From assembly GCF_008642235.1 (NCBI RefSeq), contig NZ_SJEV01000001.1:868001-932000 (forward strand): DNA of 64,000 nt, in the 5' to 3' direction. This stretch comes from Planctomonas psychrotolerans (GTDB taxonomy: Bacteria; Actinomycetota; Actinomycetes; Actinomycetales; Microbacteriaceae). A program made the position numbers and the translations under genes. Positions 15,624-20,885 of this stretch are shown piece after piece (positions within the stretch are counted from its first letter, which is position 1; every line of letters starts with the position of its first letter). Under the pieces are notes generated by a model that was not told the DNA's origin, searched no databases, and was given only the letters and a program-made list of their open reading frames with translations.

Positions 15624-16097
15624 ATGACCCCCACGTCCGAGTCCGGCCGCCCGGCCGGAACGGGCGCCCTGCCCGGATGGCGGTCGCTCGCTCTCGTGGC
15701 TCTCGGCGGGACCGTCGGCACCGCCCTGCGCGAGGCGGTCGCCCTGACCGTGCCGCCGCTCGCCGGCGTGCCCGTCGCCACGGCGGGCATCAACGTGTCG
15801 GGGGCGTTCCTGCTCGGGCTGCTGCTGGAAGTCCTGACCTGCTCGCGGGACGGAGACGCACGGTCGGCCGACCTCGGACTCCTGCTCGGCACGGGACTGC
15901 TCGGAGGCTTCACCACCTACAGCGCACTGGCCGTCGACGCGAACCTGCTCCTCGCCGCGGGGCAGCCCGGCCTGTCGGTCATCTACGCGGTGGGCACGCT
16001 CGCGCTCGGCGCGTTGGCCGCCTTCCTCGGCATCCTGGCGGGCGCCGCGGCGCGCCACCGCCGTTCCCGCAACGTCACTGCCGGTTCGCAACGATGA
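15624..16097 (+). CDS. crcB: fluoride efflux channel subunit CrcB/Fluc (first copy)
   Basis: A 157-residue four-helix membrane protein. LGGTVGTALREAVAL, the INVSGAFLLGLLLE motif near residue 57 and GTGLLGGFTTYSALAVD near 93 (with the Phe-Thr-Thr polar track) are diagnostic of Fluc channels. Actinobacteria often encode two different subunits that form a heterodimer in place of the single-gene homodimer; the 4-base ATGA overlap with the next crcB supports that here. I looked for a fluoride riboswitch in the 200 bases upstream and do not see the conserved bases. It has a longer Arg-rich C-terminus than its partner. Confidence 0.92.
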   Translation: MTPTSESGRPAGTGALPGWRSLALVALGGTVGTALREAVALTVPPLAGVPVATAGINVSGAFLLGLLLEVLTCSRDGDARSADLGLLLGTGLLGGFTTYSALAVDANLLLAAGQPGLSVIYAVGTLALGALAAFLGILAGAAARHRRSRNVTAGSQR

Positions 16098-16486
16098 CGC
16101 CGCTCCTGTTCGCGGGCATCGCGGTGGCCGGCGGACTCGGCGCGGCCTGCCGGCTGTTCGTCGACGCTCTCGTGCGGTCGCGCATCCGCACCCGGTTCCC
16201 GGTCGGCACCCTGCTCATCAACGTGACCGGCTCGTTCCTCCTGGGACTCGTCGTGACGGCGGTGATCGGCCAGGCGCTGCCCGCCGGATGGGGACTCGTG
16301 CTCGGCACCGGGCTGCTCGGCGGCTACACGACCTTCAGCACCGCGAGCGTGGAGACGGTGCGGTTGATGACGGACCGGCGGTACGGCCTCGCCCTGGGCA
16401 GCAGCGTCGGAATGCTGATCGCGGGGATGGGCGCGGGAGCCCTCGGACTCTGGCTCGGCGCGATCGGGGCATCCGCACTCCCGTGA
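16094..16486 (+). CDS. crcB: fluoride efflux channel subunit CrcB/Fluc (second copy)
   Basis: A 130-residue CrcB homologue starting in the stop codon of the first copy. It has AGGLGAACRLFVDALV, LLINVTGSFLLGLVV and GTGLLGGYTTFSTASVE, the same three landmarks with slightly different residues, as expected for the second half of a heterodimeric fluoride channel in the cytoplasmic membrane. Nothing in the sequence shows how it is controlled. Confidence 0.92.
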   Translation: MTPLLFAGIAVAGGLGAACRLFVDALVRSRIRTRFPVGTLLINVTGSFLLGLVVTAVIGQALPAGWGLVLGTGLLGGYTTFSTASVETVRLMTDRRYGLALGSSVGMLIAGMGAGALGLWLGAIGASALP

Positions 16487-16922: not shown

Positions 16923-17825
16923 TCAGGCGGCGGTTGCGATCGAGGTGAGAACGAACTGACGCACCGGCGCAGCCCGGGAGGCGGAGCAGGTGCTGAGCAT
17001 CGGCTCCGAGAGCGATTCGGCGAGGCATACCGTGACGGCGGTTCCGTCGTGATCGAGAACCACCGTCCACAGGTCCCCGTCCTTGCTGGAGCTGACCGGG
17101 TGGAAGCTGTCGATGCGGTAGTCGTGGGACGCGCTTCGCGCGTAACCCTGGGCGGCCTGCACCACATTGGGCAGAGCGCTGCGGCCGCGGAAGTAGCGGG
17201 CGTCGATCGTGCCGGTGCGGCTGCGGTCGACCACGTCCTCCGCATGCTCGGGCAGAACCCTGCCGTAGTACAACCCGTGGGGGAAGACGATCATGGTGGC
17301 CGCGAAGCGGTCACCGCCGAGGTGCGAGCACTCCCACGTGTGTTCGGGCAGCGCCTTGGCGAGGGCGGACACCACAGGGCGACCCTTCACGGCGCAGCAC
17401 TGGTCGTGACGTGCGTGGGTGCAGACGCACACGACCGGCTGCGTGGACGGCTCCCCCGCGGTTCCGTCGAGCGGAACCTCGAGCAGCTTCTCCGGATCGT
17501 CGACGGAGCCCCACCGCACCTCCTCGCGCCCGGGCCGCGCGTCGACGTAGGCCCAGCGCCAGCGCGACTGGTGACGGCGCTCATCGGCACGGCGACCGGT
17601 GCGCCGGATGGCGAGCGGACGCATCCCCTCACCCTCCACACGGCGAACGAGACGGCGGCCGAGCGCCGGGTCGAGCCGGGACTGCAGGAACGCGTGCGTC
17701 CCCCAGGCGCCATCGATCTCCACGAGGAACCAGCGCTCGCCATAACCGGCGGTGCCGGTCAGCGGATCCTGGCGTTCCTCGGAGCGGTCGCTGCAGGGAC
17801 GCCAGCCCTCACTCGACGGGGTCAT
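16923..17825 (-). CDS. sucrase/ferredoxin-like family protein
   Basis: A 300-residue Suc_Fer-like protein. The cysteine cluster CVCTHARHDQCC (Cys133, 135, 143, 144) and CSHLGGDRFAAT (Cys166) match the thioredoxin-like ferredoxin fold of this family, which is expected to bind a [2Fe-2S] cluster; Cys11 is additional. The name sucrase is historical and does not imply sugar cleavage. The ATG at 17825 overlaps the stop of the JmjC oxygenase gene, so the two are translationally coupled. In this context it may supply electrons or keep the oxygenase iron reduced; that is inference. The C-terminus (residues 200-300) is a helical tail with a conserved-looking SHDYRIDSFHPVSS. Confidence 0.82.
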   Translation of the reverse strand: MTPSSEGWRPCSDRSEERQDPLTGTAGYGERWFLVEIDGAWGTHAFLQSRLDPALGRRLVRRVEGEGMRPLAIRRTGRRADERRHQSRWRWAYVDARPGREEVRWGSVDDPEKLLEVPLDGTAGEPSTQPVVCVCTHARHDQCCAVKGRPVVSALAKALPEHTWECSHLGGDRFAATMIVFPHGLYYGRVLPEHAEDVVDRSRTGTIDARYFRGRSALPNVVQAAQGYARSASHDYRIDSFHPVSSSKDGDLWTVVLDHDGTAVTVCLAESLSEPMLSTCSASRAAPVRQFVLTSIATAA

Positions 17826-19060
17826 CGCACCACCAGCACGCCCTCGCGCACGAGTCGGCGGGCCACGACCAGTGAGGAATCGGCATCGAGGTCGGCGAGT
17901 TCCCCCGCGCGTTCGATCCGACCGTCCCTGATGCGGTCGAGAGCCGCCGCGCACTCGAGCGGCAGGCTCACCGTCTTGCTGCCGAGCACGATGCGCACGC
18001 CCGAGTCATCCTGTTCCACGCGAGCCGAGAGCCCGCCGCGCCACTGCACACGGGTCGATGCGATCATGGCCCCGAGCGCGTCGATGGTGGCCAGGGGGCG
18101 CACCGGCTCCGGTCGGATCGAGTCCCTCAGCCGCCGGTCGAGGCGCTGCGCCACCGTCGACTCGAGGTCGCCGGGGGCGGACAGCTGCTGCTGCAGCGCG
18201 CGCACCGTGTCCCCGACGATCGACTCGAGCTCCGGCGACGACGCGTCGAACCCGAGCGGCAGCGACTGCCGGAGCCCCGGTTCCTGCGCCGCCGCTGCGA
18301 GCACGCGCTCGACGATCTCGTAGCGGGTGAGGGCGGCCACGCCGAGGGTCAAGTGGATGGAGGTGTCGCCGAGGGCGGTCGCGGAGTGGATCCAGCCCCG
18401 GGGAAGATAGAGCACATCGCCCGGCCGGAGCGTGGCATCGATGGCGGGCTGCTCGAGCGCCCGCGTGGCGACCGCATCGCGGTGGTCGGTCCACGGCTGG
18501 TCGGAGAGCGGGTCCTGATGCACCGGCGCGTGAATGGTCCAGTGCTTCTCGCCGTGCACCTGCACGACGAAGACGTCGTGCACGTCGTAGTGGGGGTCGA
18601 AGCCGCGCGAGGCGGCGGGAGTGATGTAGGCGTTCACCTGGCACGGGTGCCGCAGGTCGGCGACGAGTTGGCGGGTGAAGGTGGCGAGCGGCTCCCAGGT
18701 GCGGTGGAGACCCTGCAGCACGAGGGTCGACCCCGCGGCGTACTCCTCGAGCACCTTCTCCGAGCTCAGCTGGTCGCCGATTTCCGCGCCGAAGCCGCCG
18801 GAGGCGGTGTACCGGGAGGACGTGAGCACGGTGCCCTCGTTCGCCATGCGCACGAACGGTGTGCGGATCGCCCGTTCGGCGACCAGTTCATCCACCGCGT
18901 CCGCGCTGAAGAGATCGGAGAAGTCCTCGCCGAGCTCGTCGGAACGGCTGAGGAGCGGCCCGACGGACCAGTACCTGGCACCGAAGTCGTCGGCCGCGGC
19001 ACCGACCAGACGGGAGAGCGCGGGCCGGCGAACCGACCCGCGCTCGTCACGTGCTGACAT
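17822..19060 (-). CDS. JmjC/cupin-type 2-oxoglutarate oxygenase (ribosomal-oxygenase-like)
   Basis: A 412-residue protein of the RoxA/NO66/MINA type. The iron triad is visible: His157-Tyr-Asp159 in FDPHYDVHD and distal His225 in PRGWIHSA, with VFVVQVHGEKHWTIHAP between them supplying the 2-oxoglutarate lysine region. The N-terminal jelly-roll, middle dimerisation helices and a C-terminal winged-helix-like part fit the family length. Known relatives hydroxylate Arg or His side chains of ribosomal proteins. Here the gene starts inside the stop codon of a His-containing Asp/Gly repeat peptide gene and ends overlapping the ferredoxin-like gene, so the peptide is the obvious candidate substrate (inference). 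TTG at 19063 is a less likely start. Confidence 0.85.
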   Translation of the reverse strand: MSARDERGSVRRPALSRLVGAAADDFGARYWSVGPLLSRSDELGEDFSDLFSADAVDELVAERAIRTPFVRMANEGTVLTSSRYTASGGFGAEIGDQLSSEKVLEEYAAGSTLVLQGLHRTWEPLATFTRQLVADLRHPCQVNAYITPAASRGFDPHYDVHDVFVVQVHGEKHWTIHAPVHQDPLSDQPWTDHRDAVATRALEQPAIDATLRPGDVLYLPRGWIHSATALGDTSIHLTLGVAALTRYEIVERVLAAAAQEPGLRQSLPLGFDASSPELESIVGDTVRALQQQLSAPGDLESTVAQRLDRRLRDSIRPEPVRPLATIDALGAMIASTRVQWRGGLSARVEQDDSGVRIVLGSKTVSLPLECAAALDRIRDGRIERAGELADLDADSSLVVARRLVREGVLVVR

Positions 19061-19317
19061 CAAGCGGAACCGTCGGCGCCGCCGTCGTGGCCGTCAGCGT
19101 TCGCGCCGCCGTCAGCGGTGCCCTCGCCGGCATCGGCAGATCCGTCGGCGCCGCCGTCGTGGCCGTCGGCGTTGGCGCCGCCGTCGGCGAGGCCCTCACC
19201 GGCGTCGGCGGTGCCGTCTGCTCCGCCGTCGTGGCCCTCGGGGTTCGCCCCGCCGTCCGCGGTGCCCTCGTCCTTCGAGGAGATGTTCGTGGTGATGTCG
19301 TCGTCGTTAATGCTCAT
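19060..19317 (-). CDS. Asp/Gly-rich repeat peptide, candidate modified-peptide precursor
   Basis: An 85-residue acidic peptide. Residues 1-18 (MSINDDDITTNISSKDEG) look like a leader; residues 19-85 are two full and one 19-residue copy of a 24-residue unit containing DGGANADGHDGGADG and ADAGEG. Each unit has exactly one His, and the repeats otherwise use almost only Asp, Gly, Ala, Asn, Glu, Thr and Ser. There is no Cys, signal peptide or membrane segment. GGAGG stands seven bases before the ATG. The stop overlaps the start of the JmjC oxygenase by four bases. Leader-plus-repeat layout and coupling to a side-chain oxygenase suggest a ribosomally made, post-translationally hydroxylated peptide. 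Function is unknown; a metal-binding acidic repeat protein is the alternative. Confidence 0.75.
   Translation of the reverse strand: MSINDDDITTNISSKDEGTADGGANPEGHDGGADGTADAGEGLADGGANADGHDGGADGSADAGEGTADGGANADGHDGGADGSA
19063..19263 (-). repeat. 72-bp coding tandem repeat inside the peptide gene
   Basis: Two full 72-base units (19192-19263, 19120-19191) and a 57-base partial unit (19063-19119). Units differ by only a few bases, so the array grew by recent duplication in frame with the 24-residue peptide unit. Confidence 0.9.
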
Positions 19318-19661
19318 GCTGAACCTCCGAAGTTGTTCCGAACGTCGTATGCCGCTCGTTCCCCAGCGTACTTCGCCTCCCCGTCGCGTGTCCGGTCCGC
19401 CCGCCTGCGCCCCCTGAGCGTGTCGAAGGGAGGCTCCGTCACTCGCGCGCCTTCGACCCGCACGCTCCCTCACGCTCCCTGAGCTCCTCGAAGGGAGGTT
19501 ACGTTACGTCCCTTCGACAGGCTCAGGGACCGCCCTTCGACAGGCTCAGGGACCGCCCTTCGACAGGCTCAGGGACCGTGTGGCTGAGGGACCGCCCTTC
19601 GACAGGCTCAGGGACCGTGGGGCTCAGGGACAGCCCTTCGACAGGCTCAGGGACCGTGGGC
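19318..19661. repeat. spacer holding five copies of a 23-bp dispersed repeat
   Basis: Copies start at 19510, 19533 and 19556 (directly adjacent), then 19597 and 19634; the core is CCCTTCGACAGGCTCAGGG followed by ACCG. Diverged reverse copies lie near 19411 and 19474, and partial units GGCTCAGGGAC fill the rest. The outer CCCT/AGGG ends pair, so single copies can form small hairpins. No gene is supported in this spacer; the only frames are products of the repeat. Confidence 0.85.
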
Positions 19662-20885
19662 TCAGGGAACGGGAGGGGCGACGGCGCGCGGGTTGGCGAG
19701 GATGTCGGCGAAGGCGAGTTCCGCCGCACCCACCATCAGGATGTCGCGGCCGAGGCGCGCGCGTTCGATGCGCACGTCATCACGCGGGCCGCGCATGGCC
19801 TGACCGCGCATCGCCCGGTCGAGCGCCACCGGTGCCACGGCGTGGAGCAATCCGAGGAAGCCGCCCAGCACGATGACCCCCGGGTTGAGCAGGTTCACGG
19901 CGTTGCGCAGCGCGATGCCGAGAAAACCGACCTGTGCATCCACCACCCGGGCGAGAGCGGCCGGCGGCGCATCCGACGCGTACGCCGCTCCCAGTTCGTC
20001 CTCCAGTCGCTCCGATTCGCCTGGCGCGAGGCCCAGCGCATCGAGCAGCGGCGCGCGCGACACCTCCGTCTCGAGACACCCGTTCGCCCCGCAGTGACAC
20101 AGGGCACCACCGCTCGAGACGAGTGTGTGGCCCAGCTCGCCGGCGTAGCCCGCGGCACCCGTGAGCAGCGCTCCGCCGCTGATGACGCCGCCTCCGATAC
20201 CGCTGGCACCACCGTTCAGGTAGAGGATGTTGTCCGCCCCGCGGCCCGCACCGAAGACCTTCTCGGCGTTGGCGCCGAGGCTCGCGTCGTTCGCAGCGCG
20301 CACCGGGAAGCCGGTGGCCTCGCGCAGCAACTGGGCGATGGGTTCGTCGTTCCACTCGAGGTGCGGCGCGTAGGTGACCATGCCGTCCTCCGCGCGGGTG
20401 AGCCCGGGCACCGCCACCCCGACGCCGACGATGCGCGGTGCACCGGGGCGCGAGCGGATGTCGTGGACGATGGCGGCGGAGATGTCGACCACCTCCCGCG
20501 CGGAGGGGATGGCGGGCGTCTCGTGCCGCACCCGGTGCAGCATGCCGCCGCCGAGCCCGACCAGTCCGACCGTGATGGCGTCGATCTCGGGGTTGATGGC
20601 GATCGCCGCCGTGCTCGCATCCGCATGCACGGTCGGACTCGGCCTGCCGATCGCGTTGCTGCCCATCGGCGCGGCCTCGTAGGCGAGACCGAGTTCGGCG
20701 AGCTGGGTGGCAAGAGTGGCGATCGTGGAGCGGTTGAGACCGGTGGCACGGGTGAGTTCGGCCCGCGAGTGCGGCCCGTCGTGGTGCACCAACGACAGCA
20801 CGGTTGCGAGGTTGGAGCGCCGCGCGGAATCACCCGCGCCCCCACTCGCACCCGTGCCCGCCGGGGTCGGGCGTGCCTCGGTCAC
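19662..20885 (-). CDS. ROK family transcriptional repressor, XylR-like
   Basis: A 407-residue ROK protein with an N-terminal winged helix (SNLATVLSLVHHDGPHSRAELTRATGLNRSTIATLATQL, about residues 24-62) and a sugar-kinase-like effector domain: ANDASLGANAEKVFGAG, SGIGGGVISGG and the CHCGANGCLE zinc motif near residue 270. The usual DxGGT phosphate loop is replaced by AINPEIDAITVG, so it probably binds sugar without phosphorylating it. GTG at 20885 has GGAAGG in front. It lies 41 bases after the epimerase gene on the same strand and close to xylA/xylB, so it is the likely xylose repressor acting on the palindrome at 23392-23408. Confidence 0.85.
   Translation of the reverse strand: MTEARPTPAGTGASGGAGDSARRSNLATVLSLVHHDGPHSRAELTRATGLNRSTIATLATQLAELGLAYEAAPMGSNAIGRPSPTVHADASTAAIAINPEIDAITVGLVGLGGGMLHRVRHETPAIPSAREVVDISAAIVHDIRSRPGAPRIVGVGVAVPGLTRAEDGMVTYAPHLEWNDEPIAQLLREATGFPVRAANDASLGANAEKVFGAGRGADNILYLNGGASGIGGGVISGGALLTGAAGYAGELGHTLVSSGGALCHCGANGCLETEVSRAPLLDALGLAPGESERLEDELGAAYASDAPPAALARVVDAQVGFLGIALRNAVNLLNPGVIVLGGFLGLLHAVAPVALDRAMRGQAMRGPRDDVRIERARLGRDILMVGAAELAFADILANPRAVAPPVP

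Follow-up and report, generated by a model that had tools for sequence, protein, structure and literature searches.

A three-gene operon on the minus strand of contig NZ_SJEV01000001.1 (Planctomonas psychrotolerans) appears to hold a compact pathway for the hydroxylation of a small, ribosomally made peptide. The region analyzed is a stretch of 64,000 nucleotides, hereafter called the window, and all genes of the operon lie within it. They encode a repeat peptide, a complete JmjC 2-oxoglutarate oxygenase of the ROX type, and a Suc_Fer-like protein. Operons of this kind occur in many actinobacteria. We judge the chances to be somewhat better than even that this is an operon of the kind that makes ribosomally synthesized and post-translationally modified peptides (RiPPs), and that the oxygenase hydroxylates many Asp residues in the core of the repeat peptide. 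This reading relies on comparisons among related sequences, beginning with the linkage between the peptide and oxygenase genes.

Linkage of the repeat peptide to the oxygenase

The three-gene operon is real at the coordinates given in Table 1. An initial annotation, made from the letters of the window, had named an 85-residue peptide, an oxygenase, and a ferredoxin-like gene, and all three were recovered on the minus strand. It had also described four-base overlaps at both gene junctions. This is accurate for the JmjC and Suc_Fer genes, which overlap at ATGA, whereas the peptide and JmjC genes meet at TGATG and share one base with an ATG start, or four only if the TTG at 19063 is the start. 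The G+C content at third codon positions (peptide, 0.86; JmjC, 0.90; Suc_Fer, 0.86) fits coding sequence in a GC-rich genome. Pfam scans assign the oxygenase to PF08007 (JmjC_2, E 8e-29) and the third protein to PF06999 (Suc_Fer-like, E 5e-22). The peptide has no Pfam match at E up to 1, none of the three proteins matched an NCBIfam model at E up to 1, and no RNA family reached its gathering score in the window.

The peptide consists of MSINDDDITTNISSKD before the first repeat, followed by units of 24, 24, and 21 residues, and no hydrophobic signal was seen in its sequence. The single His that the initial annotation had placed in each repeat is present, but the leader has 16 residues rather than 18, and not every repeat reaches the 24 residues first proposed. 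Near relatives were collected by scanning a genome collection with the oxygenase, which yielded 139 relatives, and the best 80 of these were used. Their hosts are mostly Microbacteriaceae, Cellulomonas, Rhodococcus, and relatives, with family names that we presume from genus membership. A homologous peptide lies directly upstream of the oxygenase in 79 of the 80 near loci, the exception being L033, in which the oxygenase match starts at contig base 33. With start codons picked by rule, the peptide and oxygenase genes share 1 or 4 bases in 69 of these 79 loci.

The repeats of the near clade have the general look ADGG...GHDGGADG, and a unit pattern with fixed Asp positions counts three units in 75 of the 80 peptides and two in the rest. 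If the peptides (80 including that of the window) are instead aligned without selection, the Asp positions of the repeats are kept in 78 to 80 of them and the three His positions in 76 to 80 each. Among near relatives, nonsynonymous differences (pN 0.082) are far fewer than synonymous ones (pS 0.462), giving a pN/pS of 0.18 over 460 non-independent pairs. This value, together with the upstream position in 79 of 80 related loci, indicates that the peptide gene is under protein-level selection and is not a chance open reading frame (ORF).

Across the phylum, a profile of the peptide found it in 7 of 296 sampled genomes, with the oxygenase beside it in all 7. In the family of the window (probably Microbacteriaceae), the peptide occurs in 15 of 150 genomes. 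Strong matches to the oxygenase (E 6e-121 or better) come from exactly these 15; another two genomes show weak JmjC matches alone (E 6e-34 and 5e-29). The peptide-oxygenase system is patchy yet tightly linked. The initial annotation had proposed asking whether repeat peptides always co-occur with the oxygenase, and every peptide-bearing genome in the phylum and family samples (7/7 and 15/15) has both. A peptide gene usually found without the oxygenase, which would have spoken against the proposal, was also looked for and is not what these genomes contain.

Profile searches with the oxygenase gave matches in 42 of the 296 phylum genomes (E up to 1e-10) and in 127 of 394 genomes of the class (E up to 1e-20). 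The wider comparison covers 140 loci, after five duplicates (L141-L145) were dropped and with the window's own genome excluded. Sixteen of the 127 class genomes were not taken in, 15 of them with E 1.5e-43 or worse and one (G375) with a match cut by the contig start. The JmjC bit score served as a proxy for clade membership, and most second copies per genome were left out, so that the set below 200 bits is incomplete. A peptide was counted when, over the final 45 residues of an ORF ending just upstream, Asp made up 13% or more and Asp, Gly, Ala, Ser, Thr, and Asn together 65% or more.

By this rule, a peptide precedes 95 of the 99 oxygenases with at least 200 bits and available upstream sequence, compared with none of the 36 sampled oxygenases below 200 bits. 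Only 2 of 7649 control ORFs from the same loci fit the rule; one of the two is probably the genuine peptide of L201, a locus with a truncated upstream region. Below 200 bits, L253 has an adjacent Suc_Fer gene and an Asp-rich peptide in a cut upstream region. Mapped onto a tree of 129 oxygenases, presence of the peptide can be explained by 5 changes, whereas shuffled labels require 31.1 on average and none of 500 shuffles went as low. Furthermore, all 94 peptide-bearing rows of this tree fall inside one 100-row branch (support 86). Overall, the linkage of peptide and oxygenase is phylum-wide, and a short precursor that is encoded beside its modifying enzyme and conserved with it is one of the features by which RiPP systems are recognized.

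The probable target residue

An AlphaFold2 model of the oxygenase (16 sequences; mean predicted local distance difference test score, pLDDT, 84.3) matches NO66 over its full length (Z 28.0, root-mean-square deviation [rmsd] 6.0, 383 aligned residues). The match of residues 8-412 to NO66 chain 4e4h_C is similar (Z 27.9, rmsd 5.8, 384 aligned), followed by MINA53 (Z 26.0, rmsd 6.8, 378 aligned) and YcfD (Z 20.0, rmsd 5.5, 344 aligned). As modeled, the protein has the complete ROX architecture of a JmjC core, a middle helical region, and a C-terminal winged helix. The intact HxD...H triad noted initially is borne out, since none of the 36 aligned family members departs from H157, D159, and H225 and the motif is found in 80 of 80 near homologues.

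The complete architecture would also suit a RoxA/YcfD-like oxygenase of ribosomal proteins, in which case the acidic peptide might be a regulator, chaperone, or competitive mimic made with it rather than a substrate. A very acidic peptide could bind in a basic cleft, and the overlap of the two genes in 69 of 79 near loci is compatible with such a partnership. However, a conserved ribosomal modification would not be expected to be as patchy as this one (15 of 150 family genomes), and a regulator has no obvious need for repeats with free Asp spacing. We therefore consider this explanation unlikely.

A second alternative is that the one His in each repeat is hydroxylated, much as NO66 and MINA53 act on His residues of ribosomal proteins. 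The nearest solved structures are indeed those of His hydroxylases, and the active site can be compared directly. In NO66, Tyr328 and Ser421 bind the substrate His, and Arg297 makes contact with the Asn beside it (PMC4556315). In a profile alignment numbered by one constant offset that fits Arg297, Asn326, Tyr328, and Ser421, NO66 Asn326 and Tyr328 correspond to Asn143 and Tyr145, both invariant among the 36 aligned family members. In contrast, Ser421 aligns with Gly240 (Gly in all 36 sequences) and Arg297 with Val114, also invariant. With these two replacements, the His pocket of NO66 is only partly kept.

The peptides themselves are divided on His. Each unit has one, kept in 76 to 80 of the 80 near peptides at each position, and 43 of the 59 tails (the last 45 residues of the 96 distinct peptides that fit the rule) that go with an oxygenase of at least 340 bits contain His. 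In the lower-scoring group, His is present in only 4 of 37 tails, and it is thus found in 47 of the 96 and absent from 49; neither His nor Asn occurs in 46. Gln takes its place at the repeat position in L121, L180, L183, and L184, and among 235 near-clade units His is found in 232, Arg in two, and Asn in one. Taken with the Gly at the position of Ser421, these losses make His a quite unlikely target, and the initial view of His as a general site of modification is not supported. Within the near clade, where its positions are kept about as well (76 to 80 of 80) as the neighboring Asp positions (78 to 80 of 80), His could still be modified.

Hydroxylation of core Asp residues, the reading we prefer, draws on what the remaining tails have in common. 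The tail of L177 is composed entirely of Asp, Gly, or Ala (45 of 45 residues), as are 44 of 45 residues in the tails of L163, L167, and L182. Other residues vary in their representation among the 96 tails (Asn in 23, Ser in 88, Thr in 77), and most core Asp residues have Gly, Ala, Ser, or Thr as neighbors. Because some tails have no His and some have little besides Asp, Gly, and Ala, Asp is the best shared target. The spacing from one Asp to the next is mainly 4 in the 59 peptides with oxygenases of at least 340 bits (237 of 398 steps) and mainly 3 or 2 in the other 37 (522 of 561 steps), a shift suggesting that Asp stays while the surrounding frame changes. In more distant peptides, the repeats take the form (DGGA)n and, beyond these, DGTDGDATDGDA and DADAADADA. 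Should a single residue type be the target in all peptides, Asp is the likeliest. The initial idea of hydroxylation repeat by repeat is therefore retained as the best inference, with Asp, which it had listed as an alternative to His, fitting all the peptides.

Possible leader recognition, the third protein, and a proposed mechanism

The C-terminal winged helix of the oxygenase is a candidate for binding the peptide leader in the manner of a RiPP recognition element (RRE). Residues 325-412, modeled as a separate domain of 88 residues (pLDDT 92.6), are closest in fold to MINA53 (Z 12.1, rmsd 1.9, 83 aligned) and NO66 (Z 9.9). Lower in the ranking are a methyltransferase (Z 7.4), PqqD (7.2; rmsd 2.5, 80 aligned), TbiB1 (7.2), a carbamoyltransferase (7.0), and the RRE of PbtF (6.7), although values under 8 can reflect chance or a common arrangement. 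Several RRE domains also recur in the Foldseek list for this domain (best E 0.014).

Some features of the peptides would fit a leader that is read by this domain. The motif [DE][DES][DEQ][IMV], a lenient regular expression (regex) chosen post hoc that makes some stray matches and misses some leaders, occurs in 70 of the 96 wider peptides, and many distant peptides share the leader pattern L-x-D-[DE]-[DE]-[IM]-x-T. Seventeen loci lack both a leader and about seven residues of the winged helix, as counted with a regex that misses clear leaders in L124, L126, L131, L177, and L245. Sixteen of the 17 sit in one 18-row branch (support 99), so the loss of the leader and the shortening of the winged helix may be one event. 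Of the 19 loci with a short winged-helix segment, the two that are not among these 17 (L194 and L242) encode truncated proteins.

The Suc_Fer gene is found downstream in 69 of the 80 near loci, within 150 bases in 61 (tblastn), and it is adjacent in 86 of 102 loci with at least 200 bits vs 1 of 36 below. The CX8C ligand motif of the Apd1/Aim32 type is present in 85 of the 86 adjacent copies. The full Aim32 motif is CX8CXnHX3H (PMC8482512), but the second His of HX3H is Asp in 82 copies (HX3D) and Cys in 2 (HX3C), and the pattern was not found in the other 2. Invariant residues include C11, C135, H140, C143, C144, and H168 in 26 of 26 aligned proteins and C280 in 25 of 25. With Asp mostly in place of the second His, the protein is not to be called a bis-His ferredoxin.

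No Suc_Fer gene is adjacent in 16 of the 102 loci. Fifteen of these genomes were searched, and PF06999 was found elsewhere in 10 and not at all in 5, two of which are only 81% and 93% complete; at the sixteenth locus, L194, the Suc_Fer gene follows at a distance of 444 bases, after a broken JmjC frame. Because no PF06999 match was found in some genomes that have the peptide and oxygenase, the Suc_Fer protein is probably auxiliary. The proposal of the initial annotation that this protein, with its Fe-S-type Cys cluster, could keep the oxygenase iron reduced is weakened by the 16 loci without an adjacent copy and the five genomes without a match.

These genomes also bear on a third alternative, in which the core is modified but the end product lies beyond beta-hydroxyaspartate. 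The chemistry could then extend to further oxidation, desaturation, decarboxylation, or crosslinking, and the Suc_Fer protein might be a second enzyme in its own right. The outcomes of 2-oxoglutarate oxygenases are varied, and both the frequent adjacency of the Suc_Fer gene and its unusual HX3D motif might point to a more active role. However, hydroxylation is the usual ROX reaction, and the peptide and oxygenase are kept in the 5 of 15 searched genomes that have no PF06999 match. An altered end product of this kind seems to us very unlikely.

For the hydroxylation of core Asp residues, a simple sequence of events can be proposed. The ribosomally made peptide would consist of a core of repeats, probably disordered, behind a short acidic leader containing DDDI. 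The oxygenase, encoded by the next, overlapping gene, might bind this leader through its C-terminal winged helix and, with Fe(II), 2-oxoglutarate, and O2, would hydroxylate many of the core Asp residues, most likely at C-beta. The Suc_Fer protein could act as an auxiliary redox partner that re-reduces the oxygenase iron or acts on the product. More speculatively, the product would probably be a cytosolic poly-hydroxyaspartate peptide with affinity for a hard metal, for example iron or calcium.

In its most extended form, this proposal would define a class of ribosomal peptides that is found across the phylum, has not been described before, and has its whole core turned into poly-beta-hydroxyaspartate by a ROX-family enzyme. 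The winged helix would be a leader-reading RRE, the product an intracellular buffer of hard metals (iron or calcium), and the ferredoxin partner a carrier of an unusual His/Asp-ligated [2Fe-2S] cluster. We offer this larger picture tentatively and doubt that all of its parts will hold.

Several points weigh against the preferred reading. The peptide rule, the leader regexes, and the cuts at 200 and 340 bits were fixed after examples had been seen, and four of the 99 oxygenases with at least 200 bits (L123, L193, L199, and L245) have no peptide that fits the rule. Since the rule demands Asp, the presence of Asp in all tails is partly true by definition, and the weight lies on the tails with little else. 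Similarly, the search pattern for the 235 near-clade units fixed the Asp positions, and its count of Asp in 235 of 235 is no evidence. Most tails contain Ser or Thr (88 and 77 of 96), and three Asn positions are kept in 76 to 80 of the 80 near peptides; the near clade alone cannot choose the target because His and Asn are kept there as well as Asp.

Regarding leader recognition, ROX enzymes whose substrates are ribosomal proteins also share a winged helix, and the leader motif is absent in one clade. Searches with a profile of the C-terminal domain turned up no RRE family, matched no PDB chain at E up to 10, and gave no Pfam family above its cut-off. In addition, no conserved protease, transporter, or immunity gene was found beside the operon within up to 6 kb at 80 near loci with a crude ORF caller, although a linked protease or transporter is expected of an exported RiPP natural product. 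The largest clusters of conserved genes other than the triad in these regions comprise 12 and 10 loci, as grouped by a caller that united only 34 Suc_Fer genes vs 69 detected by tblastn.

Surroundings, related loci, and known systems

Table 1. Positions of the operon genes and of candidate functional elements in the window
Feature	Position	Strand	Basis
GGAGG, likely ribosome-binding site before the ATG of the peptide gene	19324..19328	-	Sequence
Repeat peptide, candidate RiPP precursor, 85 residues	19060..19317	-	ORF and homologous peptide upstream of oxygenase in 79/80 related loci; pN/pS 0.18
Leader, residues 1-16, with DDDI motif at residues 5-8 (bases 19294-19305), candidate recognition sequence	19270..19317	-	D5 and D7 kept in 80/80 near peptides; role inferred
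Core repeat 1, residues 17-40, 24 residues	19198..19269	-	Repeat analysis
Core repeat 2, residues 41-64, 24 residues	19126..19197	-	Repeat analysis
Core repeat 3, residues 65-85, 21 residues	19063..19125	-	Repeat analysis
ROX-type JmjC (PF08007) 2-oxoglutarate oxygenase, 412 residues	17822..19060	-	Pfam, AlphaFold2 model, structural match to NO66
Metal-site stretch HxD...H (H157, D159, H225)	18386..18592	-	Invariant in 36/36; regexes match 80/80 near homologues
C-terminal winged-helix domain, residues 337-412, candidate leader-binding (RRE-like)	17825..18052	-	Domain model and fold matches
Suc_Fer-like (PF06999) protein, thioredoxin-like ferredoxin variant, 300 residues	16923..17825	-	Pfam and adjacency in 86/102 sampled loci
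Candidate cluster motif CX8C (C135, C144) ... HX3D (H168, D172)	17310..17423	-	Adjacent copies compared

Directly upstream of the operon, copies of CCCTTCGACAGGCTCAGGG occupy positions 19497-19677 of the window. This is a dispersed repeat, with 234 exact occurrences of the 19-mer in the genome vs 0 for a reversed control pattern. Iron regulation through an IdeR/DtxR-like box upstream of the peptide gene was considered for 80 loci and rejected, as the best site matched 12 of 19 positions of the consensus vs 13 of 19 for shuffled sequence. On the other side, next to the operon and on the opposite strand, are two adjacent CrcB-like (PF02537) genes (15639-16486, plus strand), which probably encode a two-subunit fluoride channel.

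Other arrangements of peptides and JmjC genes were encountered among the loci compared. There is apparently a second JmjC-peptide pair, in which a different peptide, highly conserved and some 35 residues long (type MDPIEVEVEDLAEVTSRDITAGGDSDGTDSSSDFI), lies directly upstream of JmjC genes of 120-200 bits (family f89; L202, L208, L210, L214, L219, L222, L225-L230, L234, and L237). One sequence of this type was checked and has no Pfam or NCBIfam match. Different short acidic peptides precede the JmjC genes of L255-L257, L199, and L207, for example MNSDDLIIAIEQLAVVHDRYDAEYSDSTGTSTGDDGE in L257 and one ending in DPDPSDDCWIVCNPNYCY in L199. The peptide upstream of the JmjC gene in L245 carries another repeat, PTEDDENLDAPGEHSQDTGDE, twice after the leader ITDNDITS, and its only NCBIfam match is a sub-threshold one to a daptide model. 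L123 and L193, which belong to one genus, have an oxygenase of the clade with neither a Suc_Fer neighbor nor a repeat peptide, and their upstream ORF ends in a conserved DDPEL-GADL-EDQ-G-GPT-EPGA segment. In the related genomes of L101 and L103, the Asp-rich peptide follows a large ORF for a putative ATP-grasp ligase. Distant JmjC relatives of the oxygenase also occur in 86 plasmid records, 25 of them from Escherichia.

If the proposal is correct, there are a variety of consequences. A large group of bacterial JmjC proteins, whose best-known relatives modify ribosomes, would gain a defined substrate and product class, and the ROX winged helix and the RRE may prove to be related in use. The operon would also show how simply a densely hydroxylated acidic peptide can be genetically encoded. 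The sharp boundary near 200 bits among the sampled loci would help genome miners to separate oxygenases with Asp-rich peptides from those without. With only three genes, co-expression and mass spectrometry should be straightforward, and the question might soon be answered.

In the titles and abstracts of open-access literature we found no description of the peptide or the triad, which is a weak absence given that subscription papers lie outside this scope; strings of the repeat motif matched only unrelated Brucella vaccine work. RRE-like domains joined to PF08007 JmjC proteins are described from fish and algae in a 2025 survey, with bacterial homologues of about 30% identity in "RiPP-like genomic contexts" (PMC12710340).

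The system is a candidate for a new RiPP class built on a ROX oxygenase, and its nearest published counterparts are the ROX oxygenases themselves, RRE-guided RiPPs, and BipG. With the ROX enzymes (YcfD/RoxA, NO66, and MINA53; PF08007), the window oxygenase shares the predicted full-length fold including the winged helix, the HxD...H triad, and Asn143/Tyr145, at 17-23% identity in structural alignments. Unlike them, it is encoded with a dedicated repeat peptide and has Gly in place of Ser421 of NO66 (36 of 36). The third protein shares its family and the CX8C motif with the Apd1/Aim32 thioredoxin-like ferredoxins (PF06999), but has Asp instead of the second His of Aim32 in 82 of 86 copies. As in RRE-type RiPPs (PqqD, TbiB1, PbtF, and others), a small precursor with a leader and repeated core is encoded beside the enzyme, and the C-terminal domain is weakly RRE-like; in contrast to them, the conserved protease or transporter was not found here, the leader is missing in one clade, and the domain resembles ROX winged helices more closely than RREs. 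BipG, a JmjC ornithine hydroxylase of the RiPP pathway for biphenomycin biosynthesis, likewise belongs to a pathway that modifies a ribosomal precursor peptide. However, the nine-gene operon there encodes a transporter and several tailoring enzymes, of which BipG is one, and BipG acts on Orn (derived from Arg) rather than Asp (PMC12707348).

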